Below, piece after piece: positions 1,920-20,151 of a stretch of DNA of 21,007 nt. Position 1 is the stretch's first letter, and the number at the start of each line of letters is the position of its first letter. This stretch comes from a virus, in IMG/VR virus record IMGVR_UViG_3300045994_000058, positions 1-21,007 of that record. One strand, given 5' to 3'. The notes beneath the pieces were generated by a model. It saw nothing but the letters and a program-made list of their open reading frames with translations. It did no database searches and was not told the origin of the DNA. The position numbers and the translations under genes were made by a program.

Positions 1920-3302
1920 ATGTTAATTGGAATTTGTGGTAGAAAGTCTTCTGGTAAATCTACAGTTACAGATTATTTAGAGAATTTAGGTTTTAAAAAA
2001 ATATCATTTGCAGCAAAACTCAAAGAATATGTTTCTGTGATATATAATGTACCAGTAGAATATTTTTATGATACTTATAAAAAAGAAATGGTGTTGGATA
2101 TTCCATTAGTTTGGAATATCCAACACACTATACATTTATCTAATATATGTAATGAAACAATACCACATTATTCAGATTACGTATTCAATACATATAGAGA
2201 AGCATTACAAATAATAGGGACAGATATTTTAAGAAAATTCGATATAAATTTTCATATTAAAAAATTAGTAGAAAATCTAAACTCAGAAGATAATTATTGT
2301 TTTGATGATTGTAGATTTTCCAATGAAAAAATATTTTTAGAAAATTATGGGGCGCATTTTATTTTTATTATGAGGCCTAATAACATGGAATATTCTAATC
2401 ATATTAGTGAGGTTGAATTAAATTGGAGTATTTTTGATAATGTTATTTTAAATAATAAATCTAAATCCACTCTATTAAGCCGAATATATTCATATATTAA
2501 TTATGGTATATCTGCATATAAACCTCCTGTAGATAGAGATACTTTGGTACATTTACTGCAAAAATACAATTATAATACTACTTTAGTATCTAATTGTATA
2601 AATAGAAGTCGTGATAGTGTTGTTTGGTGGACTAAAAATTATTTAATAGATTTACATAAGGGGCATTGTAAATATATATATGATGATACTAAATTTATTG
2701 TTGCTAATAAAGAATCATCATATTATGCTGGATTGATATCTGCTGATGGTTGTGTAAAACTTAGTGGAAAATCAAAAAGTTGTTATGTTGTAGAACTTTA
2801 TTCTAATGATAAAATACTTATAGAAGGGTTTAAGGGATTTTTAAATTCCGATAAACCTATATATGAAAAGATAGATAAAACTAACGGGAATATTAATTAT
2901 CAATTTGCGTGTAATTCTCAATATATAATTGAAAATTTAAAATTGTGGAATATTAAACCAAGAAAAAGTTGTAATAATATGATACCAGATATAATTAGAT
3001 ATGATGATAAATTATTAAATTATTGGTTATTAGGTCTTATAGATGGTGATGGTAGTATTTTTTATATAAAACAATCTAATAATATAGGAATTTCATGCGC
3101 AGCATCTGAAGATGTTATAGATTTTTTACTGGATAAATATAAACATATCGGATTAAAAAAATATACAGAAAAAAATATACCTGGATTATATAAGTTTTCA
3201 GTTACTGGAATTAAAGCGGTAAAATTATATCATGAAATATATGATGGTACTATAGGATTGTCTAGAAAATGGGACAAATTCGCAGAATATTTATCTAGAT
3301 AA
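1920..3302 (+). CDS. dNMP kinase (T4 gp1-like) fused to a C-terminal LAGLIDADG homing endonuclease
   Basis: A single 460-residue frame with two parts. Residues 1-195 look like a complete deoxynucleoside monophosphate kinase of the T4 gp1 type: P-loop GRKSSGKS at 7-14, CFDDCRF near 127-133, IFIMRPN near 148, and the terminal HISEVEL...VILNN pattern. Kinases of this family make dNDPs for phage DNA synthesis. Residues 203-245 look like a helix-turn-helix linker. Residues 262-460 form a LAGLIDADG endonuclease with two motifs, YAGLISADG (269-277) and LLGLIDGDG (370-378), about 100 residues apart as in monomeric two-repeat enzymes; an acidic residue is present in each. No intein splice motifs are present, so this is a stable fusion. 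T4 gp1 alone is about 240 aa. The RBS is weak, suggesting coupling to the vWA gene 1 nt upstream. Confidence 0.85.
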   Translation: MLIGICGRKSSGKSTVTDYLENLGFKKISFAAKLKEYVSVIYNVPVEYFYDTYKKEMVLDIPLVWNIQHTIHLSNICNETIPHYSDYVFNTYREALQIIGTDILRKFDINFHIKKLVENLNSEDNYCFDDCRFSNEKIFLENYGAHFIFIMRPNNMEYSNHISEVELNWSIFDNVILNNKSKSTLLSRIYSYINYGISAYKPPVDRDTLVHLLQKYNYNTTLVSNCINRSRDSVVWWTKNYLIDLHKGHCKYIYDDTKFIVANKESSYYAGLISADGCVKLSGKSKSCYVVELYSNDKILIEGFKGFLNSDKPIYEKIDKTNGNINYQFACNSQYIIENLKLWNIKPRKSCNNMIPDIIRYDDKLLNYWLLGLIDGDGSIFYIKQSNNIGISCAASEDVIDFLLDKYKHIGLKKYTEKNIPGLYKFSVTGIKAVKLYHEIYDGTIGLSRKWDKFAEYLSR

Positions 3303-3317
3303 TAAAGGAGATTATTA

Positions 3318-3638
3318 ATGGATTCTAGTAAAAAAGAAAGAATATATATTGGTCTTGATGTTCCTGTTGGTTGGGATACTTGTTTGTCGATGCAACCTAT
3401 TATTGAGGGTGAGATTTTAGGTGATAGATGGTCTTGGCATAGAAGCGTTCCAGAAATTCCATCACCATTGTTTGAATTTGATCCAATATTAGGTCATAGA
3501 GAACCATATCCATCAGAAGTTCAGCAATATAGAAGATATTTTCCCGGATATGCTTGGTTATATAATCCATATACCGGAGAACTCAGAGATCCAAGAGATA
3601 TTGCTTCAGATGTTTATGGTCATTTAATACAAAAATGA
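3318..3638 (+). CDS. Hypothetical protein, 106 aa
   Basis: Not recognised. The protein is rich in Trp, Tyr, Pro and Arg (for example GDRWSWHRS and FPGYAWLYNPYTGE), with no membrane segment or signal peptide, and looks like a small folded soluble domain. AAGGAG 8 nt before the ATG is the best ribosome-binding site in the neighbourhood, which supports the start. It is 15 nt downstream of the kinase fusion and overlaps the next frame by ATGA, so it belongs to the same operon. Confidence 0.7.
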   Translation: MDSSKKERIYIGLDVPVGWDTCLSMQPIIEGEILGDRWSWHRSVPEIPSPLFEFDPILGHREPYPSEVQQYRRYFPGYAWLYNPYTGELRDPRDIASDVYGHLIQK

Positions 3639-4038: not shown

Positions 4039-4531
4039 AAGTACCAAAATTAGAACATTCATTTTTGGATTATAATAGAATATATTTAGTTTCTTCTCAA
4101 GGAAGAAGAACTATTATTTTATATAGAAGTCCTACTGATAGATTAAGTATGAGTTTAGCAAGATATGTAATGTCTGTCTGTGTCTGTCTGTGTATGTTGG
4201 TAGATTATTAACTTCAAATGAAGAAGTTGATCATAGAAATAATATATGGGATGATGATAGGTTAGATAATTATCAAATATTGACTCTTAAGCAACATAAA
4301 GATAAAATTGCTAAATATAAAGGAAAACTTATGGTTGAATATGAGTGTCCGATCTGTTCTACTATATTTACAAAGAGATTTGGGTGTTCACATTATATAC
4401 AACATAATAAATCAAAGACTTGTTCTAAATCTTGTAGTTATGTTATTAATATGAAACATATGAAAAATCATCCTAATCCTATAATAGAATTAAGACGATA
4501 TGTCTTTCATACTATAAAATATTGGTATTAG
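4035..4531 (+). pseudogene. HNH homing endonuclease gene, frameshifted at a TCTG repeat
   Basis: The first part (from about GTG 4035) reads KVPKLEHSFLDYNRIYLV, then SSQGRRTIILYRSP, then SMSLARYVMS. The second part, in another frame, reads YVGRLLTSNEEVDHRNN, then DDDRLDNYQILT. Together they are the typical HNH homing endonuclease layout with EEVDH...N...LQ/YQILT. A C-terminal Cys4 knuckle (CPIC and CSKSC) follows. The frames are separated at 4170-4192 by a repeat of TGTCTGTCTG. A gain of one 4-base unit, or loss of two, would restore one reading frame. As written the product stops at the end of the repeat region, so the gene is broken or switched off. There is no good RBS for the first part; it overlaps the stop of the preceding gene. 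Confidence 0.7.
4171..4190 (+). repeat. Perfect tandem duplication of a 10-mer (TGTCTGTCTG x2)
   Basis: The 10-base unit, itself two TCTG-type tetramers, occurs twice head to tail inside the HNH gene, exactly at the point where the reading frame changes. Such short repeats expand and contract by replication slippage. Confidence 0.85.
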
Positions 4532-9543: not shown

Positions 9544-9981
9544 ATGTCACCACAAGAAGAATATGCTACAAAACACAATAGTTTTAACTTTAAACAAAAT
9601 TACAGAATGATTGGTTTTGAAGATTTAATCAAGACTCTTTCGGAATTGGAAAAACCAACTACAGGGTTTCCACCTTATAATATTGTAAAAATAACAGATA
9701 CTAAATTTAAAATTGTATTGGCAGTTGCTGGATTCTCTAAACGCGATATTAGAGTAACATTGCATAGTGGTAATCTATTAGTAGAAGGCAGCATTGATCA
9801 AAATTCTCCGGTAGTAGATTATCTCTATAAAGGAATTGCTGAACGAGATTTTAAAAGAGAATTTACTGTATCTGCTACCGTAGAAGTTTCTAAGGTGTTT
9901 TTGGAGGATGGTCTTTTATCTATTATTTTAGATAATATCATTCCAGAATCTGCTAAATTAAAAGTCTTTGAAATAGAATAA
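9544..9981 (+). CDS. hsp20: Small heat-shock protein, Hsp20/IbpA family
   Basis: 145 residues containing one alpha-crystallin domain: PPYNIVKITDTKFKIVLAVAG, then FSKRDIRVTLHSGNLLVEG, then IAERDFKREFTV and the closing DGLLSIIL corresponding to the A-x-x-x-n-G-v-L signature. The last part lacks a long C-terminal tail but has a terminal I-x-V/I-like KVFEIE. These chaperones hold unfolded proteins in an ATP-independent way; phage copies are common in T4-like phages of cyanobacteria and other aquatic bacteria and probably help virion assembly. AAGGAAA gives a good RBS. A terminator follows at 10054, closing this operon. Confidence 0.93.
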   Translation: MSPQEEYATKHNSFNFKQNYRMIGFEDLIKTLSELEKPTTGFPPYNIVKITDTKFKIVLAVAGFSKRDIRVTLHSGNLLVEGSIDQNSPVVDYLYKGIAERDFKREFTVSATVEVSKVFLEDGLLSIILDNIIPESAKLKVFEIE

Positions 9982-11521: not shown

Positions 11522-11881
11522 ATGGCTAATATTAAAATGTTAAGACTCTCCACTGGAGAGAATGTGTTGTGTGAAATCGTATCTGAACATCATGATGATG
11601 GAGTATTCTCTAATTCTTCTGACTGTGTTTATTCAGACCATATTAAAGTTTCAAATGCTGTTGAATTGAGTATTGTTCCAAATCCACAAGATAGAAGCCA
11701 AATGTCTTATGGGTTTCTACCATTTCCGCAATATGCAGCACCTAAATCTGAAGATTTGGTTACTATTATGGTTAGTCATATTGTATTCTGTTTAGAACCA
11801 GATGCTCAATTTCTAGAACAATATAATGCAATTTTCAATAAGATTATAGTTCCAGAATCAAGAATTATTCTAGGAAAATGA
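11522..11881 (+). CDS. Conserved hypothetical protein upstream of polymerase, Sm-like start
   Basis: 119 residues. IKMLRLSTGENVLCEIVSEHHD resembles the first two strands of an Sm/Lsm-like barrel (V-L-x-tGe-v-i-x-e-v), a pattern I know in hypothetical proteins next to the polymerase gene of T4-like cyanophages. The C-terminal part, LVTIMVSHIVFCLEPDAQFLEQY, then FNKIIVPESRIILG, is also typical of that group. RNA binding is only a guess from the fold resemblance. RBS GAGGT is 9 nt upstream, and the end overlaps the polymerase ATG by 4 nt (ATGA), so expression is coupled to polymerase piece A. Confidence 0.65.
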   Translation: MANIKMLRLSTGENVLCEIVSEHHDDGVFSNSSDCVYSDHIKVSNAVELSIVPNPQDRSQMSYGFLPFPQYAAPKSEDLVTIMVSHIVFCLEPDAQFLEQYNAIFNKIIVPESRIILGK

Positions 11882-12867
11882 GTACCTTCTACACAAATGT
11901 TAAAGTTATAAATGATAATATATGTTATCGTGGTATAGAAAATGGATTACCTGTAAAATTTAAATGTAAATATAGTCCTAAAGTTTATATAAAATCTAAT
12001 AAAGAATCTTTATTGAAAACTTTAGAAGGAGATAATGTAGTAGAATTAAAATTTGGTGTTGGTATAAATGAAACCAAAGACCTAATCAAGCAGTATTCTG
12101 AAGTAGATAATTTTGAGATATTAGGTGATATTGGGTTTGATACTCAATATATATCAGATAAATTCAAAGGTGTGGTAGATTTTGATATTGATAAAATATC
12201 TATTCATATATGCGATATTGAAACTTCGACAGAACTTGGTGGATTTCCAAATGCGTTATTAGCAGAAGAAGAAATACTGTTGATTTCTATGTTGGATATT
12301 AGAACACAATTAGTTACAGTATTTACTGCTAGACCATATAATGGAAAATCATTAGAAAATGTTACTATTATCTTATGTGAGGATGAAAAATCTTTATTAA
12401 GACATTTCATTGATTATTGGAATAGAGTTGCTGTAGATGTTGTTAGTGGGTGGCGCAGCAATACATTTGATATACCATTTATTATCAATAGAATCTCTAG
12501 AATTCTTGGTGATAGTTGTGCTAAAGAATTATCACCTTGGGGGATGATAACTAGCAAATCAATTAAAGGTAAATTTGGTAAAGAAGAAACTACTTATGAT
12601 ATTGCTGGTGTAGCATGTATCGATATGCTAGATTTATATAAAAAATATACATATGTCGTTAGAGAAAATTATACTTTAGATTTTATATCTCAAGAAGAAC
12701 TTGGTGAGGGTAAATTAAAAAATCCATTCTCCACATTTAAAGAATTTTACAGTGGAGAATGTGATATATATAAATTAGATCCTAATGAAACAGACGAACT
12801 TAGACAACTAGCTTACCGTAGAACTATATTAAAAACAGAATTGGTCAAGAGGGGTATTAAGTTGTGA
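11878..12867 (+). CDS. 43A: DNA polymerase gp43, piece A: N-terminal and exonuclease domain (Exo I, Exo II)
   Basis: 329 residues covering the first third of a T4-type family B polymerase. Exo [10 protein letters not shown] has Asp 113 and Glu 115; Exo [19 protein letters not shown] has Asp 198; the [17 protein letters not shown] segment matches T4 YSIDGVSILDYLDLYKKFA. Conservation ends near 293 ([12 protein letters not shown]), and a charged 36-residue tail with no counterpart in T4 follows ([20 protein letters not shown]), ending at TGA 12865-12867. Exo III and the whole polymerase domain are on other pieces. The stop of the antisense GIY-YIG gene lies within the last codons (11-nt overlap). 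The tail may pair with the extra head of piece B, as proposed for split T4-like NrdA. Confidence 0.93.
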
Positions 12868-13795
12868 TGAATTCCCATCCAACTGCAGTAAATCTAGGCA
12901 ATTTTGCTTGTGGTAGATTACGGTAATTTGGTGGTTTTATTTTACCTTTGTTTCTATATTCATACATTATAATATATGTTAGACCATGTTCTTCTGCAAA
13001 TTCTCTAGGTAGAAATATATCATCATAGACTACACCAGTAGGAGAAATTGTAGTATATGTGAACGTGGATTTTTTGTTTTTATTCATTGATATTATACTT
13101 TCTTTTTTGTGTATATATCCGGTCATACCATGAGCTGTATGACCGTTCTTTGTCCAATGATTATCACTCTGTTTTATTTTTGTATTATCTGATACTGCAG
13201 GTCTTTCTAATGTACTTCTATAAGCTCCAGCACATAAAATAGAACAACATTTTACTCTATCTAGTTTTGTTGTAAATAAACAATTGCACGATAAACATAT
13301 CTTTTCTATTAACGGATTTCTTGGTTTACCTACTTTGTTTGTATTTCCACATGATTTAGAACAATTTATTTGATTTTTTGCGCTCGATCCAACCGTAAAC
13401 TCTTTATTACAATTTTTACATATTTTTGTATATAGAATTTTTTGTGATGGAGGTCTGATAGAGGTATTGCCCTCACCACCATCCGTTTGATTTAATAATA
13501 TTCCAGTAGAGTCTATTTTCTTACCAAACCATCGAATTAATCTGCGTTCTATAGCACATGCTCCTACATTAGTTAAATTAGATTCTAATACTATAATATA
13601 GAACTTATCTTTAGGTACAGACACTGTTGTATGTTTTTTATACAATCTATTATTTTTACCTTTTCCAATATAATATGGTGTTCCTGCTTTTGCTGTTTTA
13701 GAATCTTTAGATCTAATATAAGCATATACATAATAATCTTCTGGATTTTTGTTTGAATATGAATTTTGTTGAGTATAAATATTTTTGCTGGACAT
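12857..13795 (-). CDS. GIY-YIG homing endonuclease splitting polymerase pieces A and B
   Basis: 312 residues, antisense to the polymerase. The GIY-YIG domain has YVYAYI at 22-27, PYYIGKG at 40-46, Arg 50, the catalytic-type Glu 83 in [11 protein letters not shown] and NQTDGGEG at 102-109. Two Cys4 knuckles follow (CKNCNKEF...CSKSC at 126-149 and CLSCNCLF...CSILC at 167-188), then a DNA-binding C-terminus ending AVGWEF. Its first eight codons and its promoter/leader match those of the HNH gene at 191 and the GIY-YIG gene at 14600. Expression should be late from the TATAAATA at 13866. AAGGA before the ATG supports the start. Its insertion explains why the polymerase is divided here. Confidence 0.88.
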
Positions 13796-13830
13796 AACGA
13801 TTCCTTGTAATTGTTGTAAGAATGTTTAGA

Positions 13831-13860
13831 ATAGGTAGGAAGTGAGATTCCGTGACCTAT
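13831..13860 (-). promoter_or_regulatory. Leader hairpin of the GIY-YIG mRNA (A/B junction)
   Basis: On the minus strand, starting at 13860 (the predicted late start): stem ATAGGT/ACCTAT, 3-nt CAC, inner stem GGAA/TTCC, loop TCTCAC, single T. Both stems covary with those at 1227-1256, while the CAC bulge and TCTCAC loop are identical. Confidence 0.65.
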
Positions 13861-13865
13861 ACCTT

Positions 13866-13873
13866 TATTTATA
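13866..13873 (-). promoter_or_regulatory. T4-type late promoter for the GIY-YIG gene at 12857
   Basis: TATAAATA on the minus strand, 71 nt before the ATG; the expected start at 13860 is the first base of the leader hairpin. Twelve bases separate it from the divergent -35 box. Confidence 0.7.
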
Positions 13874-13885
13874 TAAATTTAATTC

Positions 13886-13913
13886 TTGACTTATTCTATT
13901 TCTGTGTTATACT
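13886..13913 (+). promoter_or_regulatory. Sigma70-like promoter for polymerase piece B
   Basis: TTGACT 13886-13891 and TATACT 13908-13913, spacer 16 bp, 30 nt before ATG 13943. It gives the severed second part of the polymerase its own early transcription. Confidence 0.8.
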
Positions 13914-13942
13914 GTATTTTTATTATTTATAGGTAAAAATAT

Positions 13943-14605
13943 ATGACGTTTAGCAGTATGTCAAATGAAGAGTTATTATTAGAATATAATAAAATAGATT
14001 TCATAATAAAAGAGAAATGTTGGGATAAGTATTTAGAATATAACACCATAGATGTAAAGCGTGTTGCTCAATTAGAAGATAAATTAAAACTAATTGAATT
14101 GTGTTTGACTATGGCATATCTTGCTAAGATTAATTATAATGAAGTATATTCTCAGATAAAAATGTGGGATACTATTATTTATAATTATTTAAAAGATAAA
14201 AATATTGTAATCCCTAAAAAATCTCATAGTACAAAATCTGATAAATTTGAGGGGGCTTATGTAAAAGAACCAAATCCTGGGTTATATGAATGGATAGTTA
14301 GTTTTGATGCAGCATCACTATATCCTAGTATTATTCAAGGTTGGAATATTTCTCCAGAAACTTACATAGGTATGTCTAATACACCTATAATCGTTGACAA
14401 ATTGATAAACAAAGAGTATACTAATTTATCTAATGAATATTGTACTGCTGCTAGTGGTGCTATGTATTCTAAAGATAAGCCAGGATTAATGCCAGATTTA
14501 GTTGATTTATATATGGCTAAACGGGTTATAGCAAAAAATCTAATGAAAGATAATGAAAGAGAATTAGAATTATTAAAAAAAGAGTTAAAATTTAGAGGGT
14601 TATAA
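13943..14605 (+). CDS. 43B: DNA polymerase gp43, piece B: Exo III and palm motif A
   Basis: 220 residues. Conservation begins at about 26: WDKYLEYNTIDVKRVAQLED holds Exo III (Tyr 33, Asp 37; T4 has YNIIDVESV). YSQIKMWDTIIYNYL matches T4 MSPIKTWDAIIFNSL, and FDAASLYPSIIQGWNISPET (121-140) is motif A with Asp 122. GAMYSKDKPGLMPDL leads into the fingers. The first 25 residues (MSNEELLLEYNKIDFIIKEK) have no T4 counterpart and look like a charged helix supplied at the insertion. The piece stops at 14603-14605 in the fingers helices after ELELLKKELKFRGL, overlapping by 6 nt the stop of the next antisense HEG. AGGT 9 nt before the ATG is the RBS. Confidence 0.93.
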   Translation: MTFSSMSNEELLLEYNKIDFIIKEKCWDKYLEYNTIDVKRVAQLEDKLKLIELCLTMAYLAKINYNEVYSQIKMWDTIIYNYLKDKNIVIPKKSHSTKSDKFEGAYVKEPNPGLYEWIVSFDAASLYPSIIQGWNISPETYIGMSNTPIIVDKLINKEYTNLSNEYCTAASGAMYSKDKPGLMPDLVDLYMAKRVIAKNLMKDNERELELLKKELKFRGL

Positions 14606-15820
14606 TACCCATTCATATCCTTCAATTATAAGATTATGTACAATTGAAGGGTTTATTTTTGATAATTCGTAATATTTAAATCCTATATCTGCAACATTTT
14701 TCCCTAAAAAATTATTTTTTAACCATATATTTTTAGTACGATTACGTATTACTTTATTATCGCATAATTGTACTATTCCACCTGTTCCTAAATATTGTTT
14801 TAATATTTTGTCTGAATATGACATTTTTAATCCAGTAGGAGAATTGATACATAATAAATATTTTGCTGAATTAGAAACCTCAAATTTTGATATATTTTTA
14901 ATATTTATCCAACGTCCTGTTTTAAATTCTTCTAATATATTATATATCTTACACTTACCTTTAAATGGATTTTCATTTGCCCCAAAATTTAGTCTACCTT
15001 TAATATAATTGTCTGGTATATCTTCGTGTGCATATATTCTAATCTGTTCATTTGTTAATGGATTATGATAATATATAAGATTTAACATTCTTTTACCAAC
15101 GGTTTCTTTAAATTCATCAGATACCCCTAATATAAATCCAATAGGCATATCTTCATCTAACTTTAAAAATTTGCGTTCATTAGTAATTTTATTATAACAA
15201 TGAAATCTATTAGACAACTTATCTTTAGTTTTATTTTTAGATTCTTGGGTTCTAAGTTTTCCAATAAATATTAATATATTATTAGAAATTAATTCATCAT
15301 AATTGTCAATATTTTTATTAACTCTAATATTTTTATTTAATCTAGTATCATAAACCATTACCGTATTTGTATTTCTATCACTTATAGCTTGTTTAAATTT
15401 GGTAGAATATTTATTATTTAACCCAAAATTAATTCTCGATACACTCATTTTGTTTCTAGTTATTGCCGAATGAACTTTACCCCACATATGATGTAGATCT
15501 CCATTTAAAGCACCATCTAAACCATTTTCAAGCTTCAGATTTACCCACTCTTTGGATTCTACTATATTATTATTGGATGAAAATTTTAGAGCATATTCAA
15601 CTAAAGATTCTTTGTCTGCGAATAATTGATACCAGATAGTTTCTACGAATTGAGTACCATGTTTTTTAATGTGACGTTTCCAATATTTACCAGAACCAAG
15701 ATATTTAACTGGATCTTTTTTGGTTGTTTTACCAAAATATTTTAATTTAGTAATCGAATGTTGTTTGATGTAAAGATATGTTGGTATAAAATCTAAAGTA
15801 TAAATATTTTTGCTGGACAT
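14600..15820 (-). CDS. GIY-YIG homing endonuclease (NUMOD3-bearing) splitting polymerase pieces B and C
   Basis: 406 residues, antisense. A divergent GIY-YIG domain: TYLYIKQ at 14-20, LKYFGKT at 26-32, then LGSGKYWKRHIKKHG at 41-55, Glu 75 and ENGLDGA near 98-104. HHMWGKVHSAITRNKM (110-125) is a NUMOD3-type DNA-binding motif, followed by further repeats and a C-terminus ending EGYEWVL. It is related to the partial gene at 20505 (shared KYFGKT, GSGKYWKR, ENGLDG), but from a different GIY-YIG branch than the gene at 12857. Its N-terminal MSSKNIYT and upstream module are shared with HEGs at 191 and 12857. No clear RBS is visible before the ATG, so translation may be weak or controlled by the leader. 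Confidence 0.85.
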   Translation of the reverse strand: MSSKNIYTLDFIPTYLYIKQHSITKLKYFGKTTKKDPVKYLGSGKYWKRHIKKHGTQFVETIWYQLFADKESLVEYALKFSSNNNIVESKEWVNLKLENGLDGALNGDLHHMWGKVHSAITRNKMSVSRINFGLNNKYSTKFKQAISDRNTNTVMVYDTRLNKNIRVNKNIDNYDELISNNILIFIGKLRTQESKNKTKDKLSNRFHCYNKITNERKFLKLDEDMPIGFILGVSDEFKETVGKRMLNLIYYHNPLTNEQIRIYAHEDIPDNYIKGRLNFGANENPFKGKCKIYNILEEFKTGRWINIKNISKFEVSNSAKYLLCINSPTGLKMSYSDKILKQYLGTGGIVQLCDNKVIRNRTKNIWLKNNFLGKNVADIGFKYYELSKINPSIVHNLIIEGYEWVL

Positions 15821-15852
15821 TATTAGTTTATTTAATAGTAGAAATGTTTAGT

Positions 15853-15889
15853 GCTTCTGGGTACGCCAATACCGCGAGAAGCTTTTTTT
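15853..15889. terminator. Hairpin in the third HEG leader; has the form of a plus-strand rho-independent terminator
   Basis: Plus strand: GCTTCT (15853-15858), G, GGTA, loop CGCCAA, TACC, GCG, AGAAGC (15877-15882), then seven Ts. It is therefore a good terminator for plus-strand transcripts arriving from the left. On the minus strand it lies 13 nt inside the HEG leader and has exactly the geometry of the hairpins at 1227 and 13831 (3-nt bulge, 4-bp inner stem, 6-nt loop, 1-nt bulge), with entirely different stem sequences. Confidence 0.7.
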
Positions 15890-15900
15890 GTTGCTATTAG

Positions 15901-15908
15901 TATTTATA
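15901..15908 (-). promoter_or_regulatory. T4-type late promoter for the GIY-YIG gene at 14600
   Basis: TATAAATA on the minus strand; eleven bases separate it from the divergent -35 box at 15920. Expected start about 15895, giving a leader of about 75 nt. Confidence 0.7.
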
Positions 15909-15919
15909 CAAATTAAAAC

Positions 15920-15948
15920 TTGACAAAATCTAAATCTAATGCTATACT
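15920..15948 (+). promoter_or_regulatory. Sigma70-like promoter for polymerase piece C
   Basis: TTGACA 15920-15925 and TATACT 15943-15948, spacer 17 bp, 27 nt before ATG 15976. It re-starts transcription downstream of the terminator-like hairpin at 15853-15889. Confidence 0.8.
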
Positions 15949-15975
15949 ATATATTCATTTATAAGAGGGTTATAT

Positions 15976-17042
15976 ATGTATAAAAATTATTCTGATAAAG
16001 AATTACTAGATTTAAAGCATAAATTAGAAAATAATATATCTAAATATGATAATGCTCAAATGGCAGTAAAGATTGCTATGAATTCGCTAGACTAATATGG
16101 CGCTTTTATTGGTAACAATAATCGAATAACTCTGTGAATTTGGTGGAACTCCAGACCGGACAATACCAAGCCAAGCCAAAATATTTGGAAGGTTTAACGA
16201 CTATTTGTGGAAACAAAGTACACTCAAGTGAGTGGAAGCTCAGAGGTTCCTATAATTTAGGAATGTGATATAGTCTGATCTTTATGGGAACATAAAGCAG
16301 CTTATTTAATAAGCGGGGTAGAATTAACGAATCTATTTGAACAATTATATGATATGGCGCACTCGGAAATGCTCATTTTAGATATTTTAAATTGGAAAAT
16401 GCTAGAGCAATCACATTAACTGGACAATATATAATTAAATCGGTAGAGTATGGCGTAAATAACGATCTCAACAACTTATTTGGTATCAAAGATACTTGGG
16501 GTATCTACATGGATACTGACTCCATATATTTATCTTTAAAATCAATGGTTTATAAATTTTATAAAGATGTTAGTCAAGATAAATTAGTAGATATTATTGC
16601 AAAAATATGTAAAGATAAAATATCTCCTATTATTAATAAACATTGTATTGAATTGCAAGATTATACAAATAACTATAGAAAGAGTATTGTGTTTAAAATT
16701 GAAGTAATTGCTAAAAATGGGGTATTTTGTTGCCATCCTAATACAAATGTTATAATTGATGGGATTTGTATTAATATACAAGATTTATATGATAAATCTA
16801 TTGGTGGTATAGTAGATTCTGTTATATTAAGTTTTGATAAAATCTCTAATGTGTTTGAACTTGATATTGTAGAAGAAGTATTAAGAAGAGAATATTCTGG
16901 AGACATGTATGAATTTTATTTAGAAAATGGGGAAATATTAAAAGTTACAGAAAATCATATTATCTATGTTAATAGGAATGGTGTTATTAAAGAAGTTGCA
17001 GCTAAAGATGTGTTGGAGTCTGATGAATTTATTACTATATGA
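15976..17042 (+). CDS. 43C: DNA polymerase gp43, piece C: motifs B and C, with group I intron, ending in an N-intein
   Basis: Coding parts are 15976-16088 and 16352-17042, joined across a group I intron. The spliced 267-codon product begins MYKNYSDKELLDLKHKLEN (fingers helix, partly extra), then KYDNAQMAVKIAMNSLYGALGNAHFRY. That is motif B, with the intron after the second base of Leu 38 (T4: NSLYGALGNIHFRY). Motif C YMDTDSIYLSL has DTDS at 92-95. The extein ends at Phe 163 in AKNGVF; from Cys 164 (16728) the remaining 104 residues are an N-intein half, ending at TGA. Without RNA splicing the frame stops at TAA 16093-16095. GAGGGT 9 nt before the ATG is the RBS. No catalytic motif is lost across the pieces. 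Confidence 0.92.
16089..16351 (+). ncRNA. Group I intron, ORF-less, in polymerase motif B
   Basis: Exon ends CGCT, pairing with internal guide GGCG (16099-16102) to form P1 with a U-G pair at the splice site. The R element TTTAACGACTA (16193-16203) and the S element GATATAGTCT (16267-16276) give P7 as GACTAT/ATAGTC. A P9-type hairpin GCTTAT-TTA-ATAAGC is at 16300-16314. The intron ends with G 16351; the following exon begins ATATGGCGCACTC. Joining 16088 to 16352 restores NSLYGALGN exactly. ATAT before the guide can pair with exon ATAT as P10. At about 263 nt it carries no endonuclease gene, so mobility would depend on another one. Confidence 0.9.
16728..17039 (+). other. N-terminal half of a split intein
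   Basis: 104 residues from Cys 1: block A CCHPNTNVIIDG (Cys at 1, Thr at 6, Val at 8), and block B GDMYEFYLENGEILKVTENH with the T-x-x-H motif (TENH) near 74-77. It ends shortly after VLESDEFITI at TGA. Length matches known split N-inteins. I place Cys 1 at the first of two Cys codons because this puts Thr at position 6 and makes the spliced extein NGVF-CAKKRY the same length as T4 GGFWKAKKRY. Confidence 0.9.
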
Positions 17043-18396
17043 AATAAAAGAGTTATTATTAGATTTTGATGAACTCCCAAAATCTAGGCAGTTAAAGCAA
17101 CTAAATCCTGTATTATATGCAGATTTGCTTGAATTAATGCAAATATATAACTATGAATCCACTAGATTAGTTGCGTATTTAATTATGTATGATATATACC
17201 CAGAAATGTATGGAGTATGTTCTATTTGTAAAGTTAAATATTTATTACGAATTGATGCGAATCATAAACTTTCTATAGTATGTTCTCATTCATGTGAACT
17301 AAAGCGTAGACATTTAGATCCTGCTTATATTTTAAATATAAAAACTAAATCTATGCATACAAAAGATAATACTATAATTGATGGTCTTAATGCACACCAA
17401 AGAGGTTCTAATAAAGCAGCTATCACTACAAAATTACGATATACTAAAGATGAAATATCTTCTTATTTATCTTTAGGGGTAAAGAACCATAGTGAATATA
17501 ACATACATATACCAAGACGAGTTAGAATAATTCGGGTATTAGAATATTTTGGGGTTAGTCGTAGTATTATTCTATATTTTAAATTAATTAATTTAAAATT
17601 GTCATATCTGAATTATATAAAAAGAATACAGAAAATATGTAAATATATATCATATCATATTCCAGATATTGAATTATTAAAAAAAATATATTTTGTTATT
17701 AATAATATAACTGTGGAGAAAGTTTGTCCGATATGTAATATAAAATTTAAAACCATTACATTTATCTCTGAATTTGAATATAAAATAAAATATGGTGTAT
17801 TTTGTGGTGCTAGTTGTAGACAAAAACATAATATGACATCACAGAGAAAGTTAGATCTATCAGTACGAATGAATAAATTATATGAAGATCTAGAAGAACA
17901 TAACAAAACCTCTATACACTCTATTGAATCGTGGAAAACTCGTGATTCATCTGAATGGGTGTCTAAATATTTAACTACACTAGGTGAAGAAGGTAAGAAA
18001 AAAAGAACAAAATCTGCATTAAATACTAAATTAGAAAGAGGTCATATATCTGTTATAAATCCTGATAATAATACTGAATATAGAAAGTATAAAAATAATG
18101 TTATATCATTAACTAGAAAGTTGGATTTAAGTTCATTAGATAATATATTAGATAGAGGTAAAAAAACATACCATTTAGATCATATATTCCCAACTTCTAG
18201 AGGATTTTCTTTTAATATACCAGACTATTTAATTGCACATATTGACAATGTTAGACTTATATGGCATAATGATAATAGAAAAAAATCCGCAACTATAATA
18301 GAAGTTCCGAAGCATATTTTATTATATTTACAAGAAACTAATGAAGATAATTATAGGTTAATTTTAAATGAAATTATTAAAAATACAAAAATATAA
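17023..18396 (+). CDS. Free-standing HNH homing endonuclease gene between the intein halves
   Basis: 457 residues from ATG 17023, which has GGAG 4 nt upstream; in-frame ATGs at 17008 and 16966 lie deeper in the intein and lack it. The HNH domain is near 383-422: YHLDHIFPTSRGF, then IDNVRLIWHNDNRKKS, with DH, N and H in order. Two Cys4 knuckles precede it (CSICKVKYLL...CSHSC and CPICNIKFKT...CGASC), probably DNA-binding. The start overlaps the N-intein end by 20 nt and the end overlaps the C-intein start by 29 nt, each in a different frame, so all three frames are translationally coupled. It replaces the endonuclease domain of a normal intein with a separate protein, as in the fractured-gene split inteins described from environmental phage sequence. 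Confidence 0.88.
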   Translation: MNLLLYEIKELLLDFDELPKSRQLKQLNPVLYADLLELMQIYNYESTRLVAYLIMYDIYPEMYGVCSICKVKYLLRIDANHKLSIVCSHSCELKRRHLDPAYILNIKTKSMHTKDNTIIDGLNAHQRGSNKAAITTKLRYTKDEISSYLSLGVKNHSEYNIHIPRRVRIIRVLEYFGVSRSIILYFKLINLKLSYLNYIKRIQKICKYISYHIPDIELLKKIYFVINNITVEKVCPICNIKFKTITFISEFEYKIKYGVFCGASCRQKHNMTSQRKLDLSVRMNKLYEDLEEHNKTSIHSIESWKTRDSSEWVSKYLTTLGEEGKKKRTKSALNTKLERGHISVINPDNNTEYRKYKNNVISLTRKLDLSSLDNILDRGKKTYHLDHIFPTSRGFSFNIPDYLIAHIDNVRLIWHNDNRKKSATIIEVPKHILLYLQETNEDNYRLILNEIIKNTKI

Positions 18397-18472
18397 ATAT
18401 GAAGGTTTTGTTTATGATTTAGTAGTAGCAAAGAATAAGAATTTTGTTGCAGATAGCGTTGTTATTCATAAT
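18368..18472 (+). other. C-terminal half of a split intein
   Basis: 35 residues from ATG 18368: KIQKYKYEGFVYDLVVAKNK, then NFVADSVVIHN, followed by Cys of the extein (18473-18475). Block F is VYDLVVAKNKNFVAD and block G is VVIHN with the penultimate His, terminal Asn and Cys +1. The block F position that is usually His (NHNF) is Lys here (NKNF). Length is typical of a split C-intein. Confidence 0.92.
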
Positions 18473-19075
18473 TGCGCTAAAAAACGATATTTCATGAATG
18501 TTCTTGATAATGAGGGTGTTAGATATGCTACACCTAAACTAAAAGTTATGGGTCTAGAAGTTGTGAAATCATCTACTCCTGGAGTTATTAGGAAAACTTT
18601 AAAGGCCGCATTGAGTATTATCTTAGATGAAGGTGAAGCAAAAATTCAGGATTATATTTTGAAATGTCAATCTGAGTTCTCTAAATTTTCAATCGAAGAA
18701 ATTTCATTTCCAAGAGGTGTTAATGGTTTAAGTAAATATAATGATTCGGTTACTATATATTCTAAAGGAACACCAATCCATACTAAAGGTTCTTTATTAT
18801 ACAATGATAAATTATTAGAACTTGGATTAGAAAACAAATATCCATTAATTGGTGAAGGAGATAAAGTAAAATATACATATCTGAGAGAACCAAATCCGAT
18901 GAAAAATATGGTAATATCATATCCTACAGAATTACCAGTAGAATTTGGATTACATAAATACGTAGATTTTAATATGCAATTTGAAAAATCCTTTTTAGCA
19001 CCACTTAGAAATATTCTGGATGCTATAGGATGGAAAACTGAAAAATCAACATCAATCGAAGACTTTTTTAACTAA
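18368..19075 (+). CDS. 43D: DNA polymerase gp43, piece D: C-intein plus thumb and clamp-binding tail
   Basis: 235 residues: C-intein 1-35, extein 36-235. The extein starts CAKKRYFMNVLDNEGVRYATPKLKVMGLEVVKSSTP, matching the T4 KAKKRYALNVYDMEDKRFAEPHLKIMGMETQQSSTP region (viewed as segments), the family B KKRY motif and thumb. It ends LRNILDAIGWK...SIEDFFN, comparable with T4 C-terminal LDFLFG, which binds the gp45 clamp. Trans-splicing with piece C would give a 363-residue polymerase chain. The start overlaps the HNH gene end by 29 nt; only a weak TAGG precedes the ATG, so translation probably depends on coupling. The methyltransferase gene begins 2 nt after its stop. Confidence 0.93.
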   Translation: MKLLKIQKYKYEGFVYDLVVAKNKNFVADSVVIHNCAKKRYFMNVLDNEGVRYATPKLKVMGLEVVKSSTPGVIRKTLKAALSIILDEGEAKIQDYILKCQSEFSKFSIEEISFPRGVNGLSKYNDSVTIYSKGTPIHTKGSLLYNDKLLELGLENKYPLIGEGDKVKYTYLREPNPMKNMVISYPTELPVEFGLHKYVDFNMQFEKSFLAPLRNILDAIGWKTEKSTSIEDFFN

Positions 19076-19077
19076 AT

Positions 19078-20151
19078 ATGACTAAACATAAATTCCCATA
19101 TAATTGGACACTAGAAGATTCTAAATTTACTAAAGATAAAGGTACTGTATTTTCTTGTTTTGCTTGTGGTGGTGGTTCTACTATGGGATATAAATTAGCA
19201 GGATTTGATGTTATTGGATGTAATGAAATTGATCCTAGAATGGCAGAAATATATAAAGAAAATCATAATCCAAAATATTTATATATCGAACCCATTCAAA
19301 CATTTAAACTTAGAGAAGATTTACCTGAAGAATTATATAATTTAGACATATTAGATGGATCGCCACCCTGTTCGAATTTCTCTATGGTAGGTAATAGGGA
19401 GAAAGATTGGGGGAAACTTAAGAAATTTGCTGAAGGTCAAGCTACTCAAGTATTAGATACTCTATTTTTTGATTTTATAGATTTAGCTAAAAATCTACAA
19501 CCAAAAGTTGTTATTGCAGAAAATGTAAAAGGTTTGTTGTTAGGTAATGCTAAATCTTATGTTGATAAAATATTAATTGAATTTGATAAAGCAGGATATT
19601 ATGTTCAATATAAATTATTAGATGCTTCTGATATGGGAGTTCCTCAACGCAGAGAAAGAGTATTTTTTATTGCATTCCGGAAAGATCTAGCTAAAGACTT
19701 TTTAGTGCAATTAAACTTATTTGATGAGATTCCTTTATTAACATTAGATTTTAATGAGCCTAAAATATTATTTAATGAAATTAAAAATAATTTACCTAGA
19801 ACATCTTTATCTACCAAATATATTGAATATTGGGAATGGTGTATTAAAAACGATAAGGCATGTTTAGCATCATATTCCGAATTCAAGTACAATAAAAGAC
19901 TTGCATTTAGTTATCAGATAGTATATAATGATACAGTATGTTATACTTTAACATCAAGTAAATCTCTTATTGTAGAAACTGGACCAGGATTTATAAATGA
20001 CTTAGAAATAAAATTAGTATCATCATTCCCCACAGATTATAATTTCTTATCAAGAAACGTACAATATGTTTGTGGGATGTCTGTACCACCAGTTATGGTT
20101 GCTAATATTGCAACTAATATATACCAACAATGGTTAAGTAAACTTAAATAG
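19078..20151 (+). CDS. DNA (cytosine-5) methyltransferase
   Basis: 357 residues of the C5-MTase family with motifs in canonical order: I FACGGGSTMG (28-37) for SAM, IV DGSPPCSNFS with catalytic Cys 98, VI AENVKG (147-152), VIII PQRRERVFFIAF (189-200), a short target-recognition region, and X near 330 (CGMSVPPVMVANIATNI). All key residues are present, so it should be active; the target sequence cannot be read. It is unaccompanied by a restriction gene, so host-restriction evasion or DNA marking is likely. It is 2 nt downstream of polymerase piece D and in the same direction. A GIY-YIG gene follows after one further gene. Confidence 0.93.
   Translation: MTKHKFPYNWTLEDSKFTKDKGTVFSCFACGGGSTMGYKLAGFDVIGCNEIDPRMAEIYKENHNPKYLYIEPIQTFKLREDLPEELYNLDILDGSPPCSNFSMVGNREKDWGKLKKFAEGQATQVLDTLFFDFIDLAKNLQPKVVIAENVKGLLLGNAKSYVDKILIEFDKAGYYVQYKLLDASDMGVPQRRERVFFIAFRKDLAKDFLVQLNLFDEIPLLTLDFNEPKILFNEIKNNLPRTSLSTKYIEYWEWCIKNDKACLASYSEFKYNKRLAFSYQIVYNDTVCYTLTSSKSLIVETGPGFINDLEIKLVSSFPTDYNFLSRNVQYVCGMSVPPVMVANIATNIYQQWLSKLK

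Follow-up and report, generated by a model that had tools for sequence, protein, structure and literature searches.

The window analyzed here is a 21,007-base stretch of an uncultured virus record that encodes T4-type replication genes: a sliding clamp, a clamp loader, a dCMP deaminase, and a split DNA polymerase. Positions 1920 to 3302 (+ strand) form one uninterrupted reading frame, with an ATG start and a TAA stop, encoding a 460-aa protein in which a kinase and a LAGLIDADG domain are joined in frame, as the original prediction had claimed from the nucleotide sequence. The gene lies between one for a von Willebrand factor A domain protein (1343 to 1918, + strand) and one for a 106-aa protein without assigned function (3318 to 3638, + strand).

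The N-terminal domain (residues 1 to 195; positions 1920 to 2504, + strand) was assigned by sequence and by fold. It matches the Pfam DNMK family PF21448 (E = 2.7e-17; 63.6 bits against a curated cutoff of 27.1) as far as position 229 of 232, the dNMP kinase family PHROG 139 over residues 1 to 194 (1.6e-37), and the T4 gp1 structure 1dek, in which residues 131 to 236 of 241 correspond to residues 92 to 191 of the fusion. Because the 1dek match extends to position 236 of 241, the kinase is complete to its C terminus. A P-loop, GRKSSGKS, occupies residues 7 to 14, and the conserved kinase residues R93, Q97, T101, D129, D130, R132, E136, H161, and E164 are all present. This half is a predicted deoxynucleotide monophosphate kinase of the gp1 type, complete and with its family residues in place. 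T4 gp1 has the same fold, P-loop, and family residues, but is a protein of 241 aa with no endonuclease.

The C-terminal half matches Pfam LAGLIDADG_3 (1.2e-8) and the endonuclease family PHROG 4645 (2.6e-24, residues 251 to 456). Its first repeat (residues 264 to 343; positions 2709 to 2948, + strand) carries the motif YAGLISADG at residues 269 to 277 (positions 2724 to 2750) with catalytic Asp D276, and its second (residues 363 to 440; positions 3006 to 3239, + strand) carries LLGLIDGDG at residues 370 to 378 (positions 3027 to 3053) with D377; both motifs are exactly where they had been placed. An AlphaFold2 model of the fusion (pLDDT 89.9, pTM 0.84) comprises the kinase fold (1 to 196), short helices (206 to 240), and two alpha-beta-beta-alpha-beta-beta-alpha repeats (264 to 343 and 363 to 440). 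The top solved-structure matches to this model were I-Tsp061I (2dch, 1.1e-8), the T4 dNMP kinase, and I-AniI (1p8k, 8e-8). With both catalytic Asp and a two-repeat fold, this half is a predicted two-motif, monomeric LAGLIDADG endonuclease, and the claim that both domains look intact agrees with the conserved active-site residues and the confident fold. The linker (residues 196 to 249; positions 2505 to 2666, + strand) was correctly described as helix-turn-helix-like: the model has three short helices at 206 to 240. Helix-turn-helix domains adjoin the nuclease in other phage LAGLIDADG proteins too, and among the longest of those we found no fusions to enzymes, just helix-turn-helix extensions or a second LAGLIDADG unit.

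Divergent Fusions Form One Kinase Clade

Alignment-based scans of IMG/VR for other kinase-LAGLIDADG fusions found five (L020, L021, L102, L155, and L158), so that full-length fusions with both catalytic Asp are present in six divergent phages, the window included. The five are 31 to 41% identical to the window protein and come from other samples, with locus GC contents of 28 to 64%; in five of the six the GC content of the fused gene is below that of its flanks. The fused members sit in unrelated phages at unrelated loci and thus give no sign of recent homing at one conserved site, and their family may be old and passed on largely by vertical descent. A seventh member, L154, has the same order of domains, but two in-frame stops interrupt it at the junction; its endonuclease frame is otherwise intact, and stops between the halves occur in this member only. 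Over these seven members, kinase identities covary with endonuclease identities (r = 0.67, exact Mantel p = 0.009), as if the two halves had been inherited together.

Scans of viral contigs with single proteins (P0001; the kinase half alone) found no relative, and a megablast search for relatives of L158 found none. A scan of genome contigs gave 15 kinases, none of them fused, and no plasmid covered 80% of the fusion. Among 50,697 phage records none covered 80% of it, and none of the isolates in that set carried the fusion in full. Among named proteins, those closest to the endonuclease half, at 25 to 32% identity, are I-MsaII and its kin, which are intron-encoded in recA of Staphylococcus Twort-like phages; the free-standing endonuclease of the crAss-like phage cr6_1, whose gene starts near the fusion junction; and the endonucleases of Lak phages. 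None of these is fused to a kinase. Searches of the open-access literature found no kinase-endonuclease fusion. Endonuclease-driven allele replacement in phages is already known; what we did not find described earlier is a homing endonuclease that a metabolic enzyme carries permanently as one of its domains.

In trees of the kinase domain, all 25 tailed kinases, together with two to three untailed ones, fall on one side of a branch supported by an SH-aLRT of 97 in a 99-row tree and by 96/98 in a more careful 64-row tree, with 71 and 37 unfused rows, respectively, on the opposite side; these member counts are not frequencies, because the scans used clade members as queries. The clade is consistent with a single old fusion, after which, most simply, the endonuclease was lost several times. 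Deep branches within it are weakly supported, and relationships inside the clade are only partly resolved.

The Endonuclease Decays and the Kinase Is Kept

Several members of the clade carry a damaged endonuclease. The catalytic Asp of motif 1 is replaced by Ala in L160, by Asn in L103, L104, and L164, and by Ser in L163; L160 is also truncated just past motif 2, L103 and L104 are likewise shortened, and L161 is without the second LAGLIDADG repeat. A further group has remnant tails of 78 to 103 residues (about 90 aa), on contigs of up to 387 kb. Most of the short tails terminate in NP[LFY]-I-[IV]-E-[ND]-L-K, which corresponds to the end of the first LAGLIDADG repeat. All 11 fused or damaged proteins that were compared retain R93, Q97, D129, D130, R132, E136, H161, and E164 of the kinase.

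A profile of intact endonucleases matched the tails of L160 (2e-36), L103 (1e-12), L164 (5e-9), L176 (6e-8), L163 (3e-7), L161 (3e-6), L174 (5e-6), and L178 (2e-5), scores reached by none of 1,000 shuffles. The short tails of L174, L176, and L178 match at one shared position and stop there; others match more weakly, among them L105, L166, L171, L172, L179, and L108. The match is borderline for L175 (first profile), L179, and L105, and the L177 tail scored no better than shuffles, and therefore these four are called remnants mainly by their tree position and ending. In a model of L176 (pLDDT 80), the tail is an alpha-beta-alpha-beta-alpha unit of lower confidence, like a reduced single repeat. 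In a structure library, a 308-aa predicted viral dNMP kinase (A0A8S5RY72, Myoviridae sp. ctNQV2) aligned with the fusion model over 366 columns and is probably a further kinase that ends in a remnant tail.

Within the clade, judged by sequence comparison, the endonuclease thus ranges from intact through catalytically dead to a remnant of about 90 aa, and the active site of the kinase is kept. The fusion had been proposed to be stable, which holds for the family, with one clade and several divergent intact members, and fails for a permanently useful endonuclease, which has decayed in several members that keep the kinase. Homing endonucleases in general are described as free to decay after fixation (PMC13405050).

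The Whole Kinase Gene Is Exchanged Relative to a Close Relative

One contig, IMGVR_UViG_3300045743_000086 (L002), is collinear with the window at a DNA identity of about 85 to 94%, and its counterparts of the flanking proteins are 89% (von Willebrand factor A domain protein) and 82% (106-aa protein) identical at the protein level. Between these genes, positions 1928 to 3332 of the window have no DNA similarity to L002 by blastn, and similarity is present on either side, at 89.9% over 1277 to 1927 and at 85.0% over 3333 to 3632. The edges of the swapped segment lie a few bases in from the kinase start codon and at codon 5 to 6 of the next gene. At the same locus, L002 has an unfused kinase of 206 aa that is only 28% identical to the window kinase and belongs to a separate, distant clade (support 100/99 in the 64-row tree); grouping the two kinases together was rejected (AU p = 1e-6). 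An unfused kinase was thus present in a close relative, as had been looked for, but it is not the unfused form of the window kinase. Scanning for more relatives of the neighboring 106-aa protein returned the L002 contig only.

The comparison establishes, at the level of sequence, that the window and L002 differ by the exchange of one whole kinase gene for a distant one, the window's carrying an endonuclease. As the reason for the fusion it points less to the securing of early expression, which had been proposed, than to kinase and endonuclease moving as one unit that replaced a resident unfused kinase gene. The window rather than L002 appears to hold the newcomer, judging from base composition: the kinase half of the window gene has 23% GC against 28 to 35% in its non-endonuclease neighbors, and the L002 kinase, at 30%, is similar to its neighbors. 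Presence and absence accompanied by local sequence replacement at one locus, a property of intronless homing elements, is seen here in one genome pair. The endonuclease has no reading frame of its own, such as a free-standing homing element has.

A Candidate Homing Cassette That Needs No Splicing

We think it rather probable that the fusion gene is a homing cassette that works without splicing, in which a complete dNMP kinase would carry a LAGLIDADG homing endonuclease at its C-terminal end. The domain architecture, the kinship of the members, the swap, and the decay can be read from the sequences, whereas we infer DNA cleavage, its target, a cut that drives the swap, the direction of the swap, homing, and kinase activity. 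The steps may be ordered as follows. During coinfection, the endonuclease would cut a related phage genome at or near a kinase gene lacking the endonuclease, its choice of target possibly guided in part by the helix-turn-helix-like linker. Resection of the break would reach homologous flanks and the donor would serve as repair template, such that the resident kinase gene would be wholly replaced by the fused gene, whose kinase domain would supply the lost function. Because the incoming kinase would replace the function destroyed, no intron or intein would be needed to spare the target gene. After fixation, the endonuclease would be free to decay and the kinase would be kept. We regard as evenly balanced the more detailed proposition that the endonuclease forms a lasting C-terminal part of the protein that the target gene itself encodes, homes by whole-gene replacement, and later persists as a single-repeat remnant in very large phage lineages.

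The T4 endonucleases SegF, SegG, and SegE cut a coinfecting relative, and repair copies the endonuclease gene and its flanks, replacing the relative's alleles (PMC2988022, PMC2993671). This intronless homing, which converts flanking sequence and leads to marker exclusion (PMC2988022, PMC2993671), resembles what we propose for the fusion. SegF (next to gene 56), SegG, SegE, and MobE also resemble it in placing an endonuclease gene beside a gene of nucleotide or DNA metabolism and in being unequally present in close relatives. However, the T4 Seg and Mob endonucleases have ORFs to themselves and belong to the GIY-YIG or HNH families, whereas here a LAGLIDADG endonuclease forms the C-terminal part of the metabolic enzyme itself, in one polypeptide, and would take the entire metabolic gene along. 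Inteins and LAGLIDADG endonucleases encoded in group I introns likewise lie in frame with a host gene whose function is preserved, but the fusion has no splicing element and its endonuclease stays as a permanent C-terminal domain. If true, this would be another solution for a homing endonuclease beside a useful gene, splicing-free and with the target replaced by a working copy, and it would help to explain swaps of phage nucleotide-metabolism genes for distant homologs at conserved loci. The series of intact, dead, and remnant forms in one gene family would make the life cycle of an endonuclease traceable while its carrier stays under selection.

A serious but clearly less probable explanation is that a LAGLIDADG domain was fused once and has since been coinherited as a passenger, at most occasionally active, the swap between the window and L002 being ordinary recombination. 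Phage genes recombine freely, a single swap was seen, in one pair of genomes, and its pattern could also come from such recombination; the many clade members with a dead endonuclease fit this explanation as well. However, six divergent members keep both motifs and their catalytic Asp, features that drift should have removed, as it did in the sisters L160 and L163/L164; the window protein models as a confident two-repeat fold, and the swap boundaries coincide with gene edges.

It is more doubtful still that the protein is a useful bifunctional enzyme, whether its endonuclease cuts competitor or host DNA and its kinase recycles the nucleotides, or its LAGLIDADG domain is a DNA-binding regulator. 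LAGLIDADG enzymes cut rarely and at specific sites, without freeing mononucleotides. The endonuclease has also been lost repeatedly from proteins that keep the kinase, and such frequent separation of the halves implies that the pair is not needed together and makes bifunctionality less likely. On the other side, the phage homing endonuclease PhiPA3 gp210 can serve competition (PMC11620839) and the LAGLIDADG relative WhiA acts as a regulator (PMC3781837), and the many remnants that keep one helix-strand unit with its conserved ending hint at a retained structural role in those proteins.

An intein, or an intron ORF read through from an upstream exon with the downstream part overlooked, is a very improbable description of the locus, common as LAGLIDADG proteins are in inteins and introns and although the polymerase of the same phage contains an intein. 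It is contradicted by a kinase that is complete before the junction, leaving no kinase exon missing, and by a protein that ends with the endonuclease, with the next gene following directly, as it does in L002. In agreement with the predicted absence of intein splice junctions, the fusion has no intein family match, no N- and C-terminal splicing blocks, and no downstream extein, and there is no Rfam group I intron match in the window at E values up to 1. An assembly or sequencing artefact joining two genes, conceivable for a metagenomic contig and given the in-frame stops of L154, has a negligible probability and is contradicted by the five other divergent contigs of differing GC content and sample origin, whose same end-to-end fusion excludes a stop-removing sequencing error, the outcome named beforehand as fatal to the original prediction.

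Other Endonuclease-Like Genes and Features of the Window

Much of the genome difference between the window and L002 is located at endonuclease genes. Positions 196 to 1276 of the window are an insert of about 1.08 kb that encodes a homing endonuclease (PHROG 655, - strand) and for which L002 has a clean empty site, and further HNH-like ORFs occur in one of the two relatives at different places (4190 to 4531 in the window; 6013 to 6582 in L002). Three free-standing endonuclease-like genes of different families, with start codons at 1192, 13795, and 15820, lie on the - strand, antisense to phage genes. They share their first ~21 coding bases, ATG[T/A]CCAGCAAAAATATTTATA, and a T4-late-promoter-like TATAAATA lies 70 to 81 bases upstream of each, as if all three were expressed from one shared leader.

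The DNA polymerase gene (PHROG 262; 11878 to 19075) is in four coding pieces, with antisense endonuclease-like genes in two of the gaps; Rfam recognized no group I intron in this region. The last break (16392 to 19075) is an intein, by its N-terminal (TIGR01445, 2e-9) and C-terminal (TIGR01443, 3e-5) matches, with the two halves in separate reading frames flanking a 476-codon ORF of another frame (16966 to 18396, PHROG 5104), an arrangement that may represent a split intein whose halves are separated by an endonuclease gene. The window also encodes a DNA cytosine-5 methyltransferase (19078 to 20151; TIGR00675, 4e-37) and an Hsp20 small heat-shock protein (9544 to 9981; PHROG 432).
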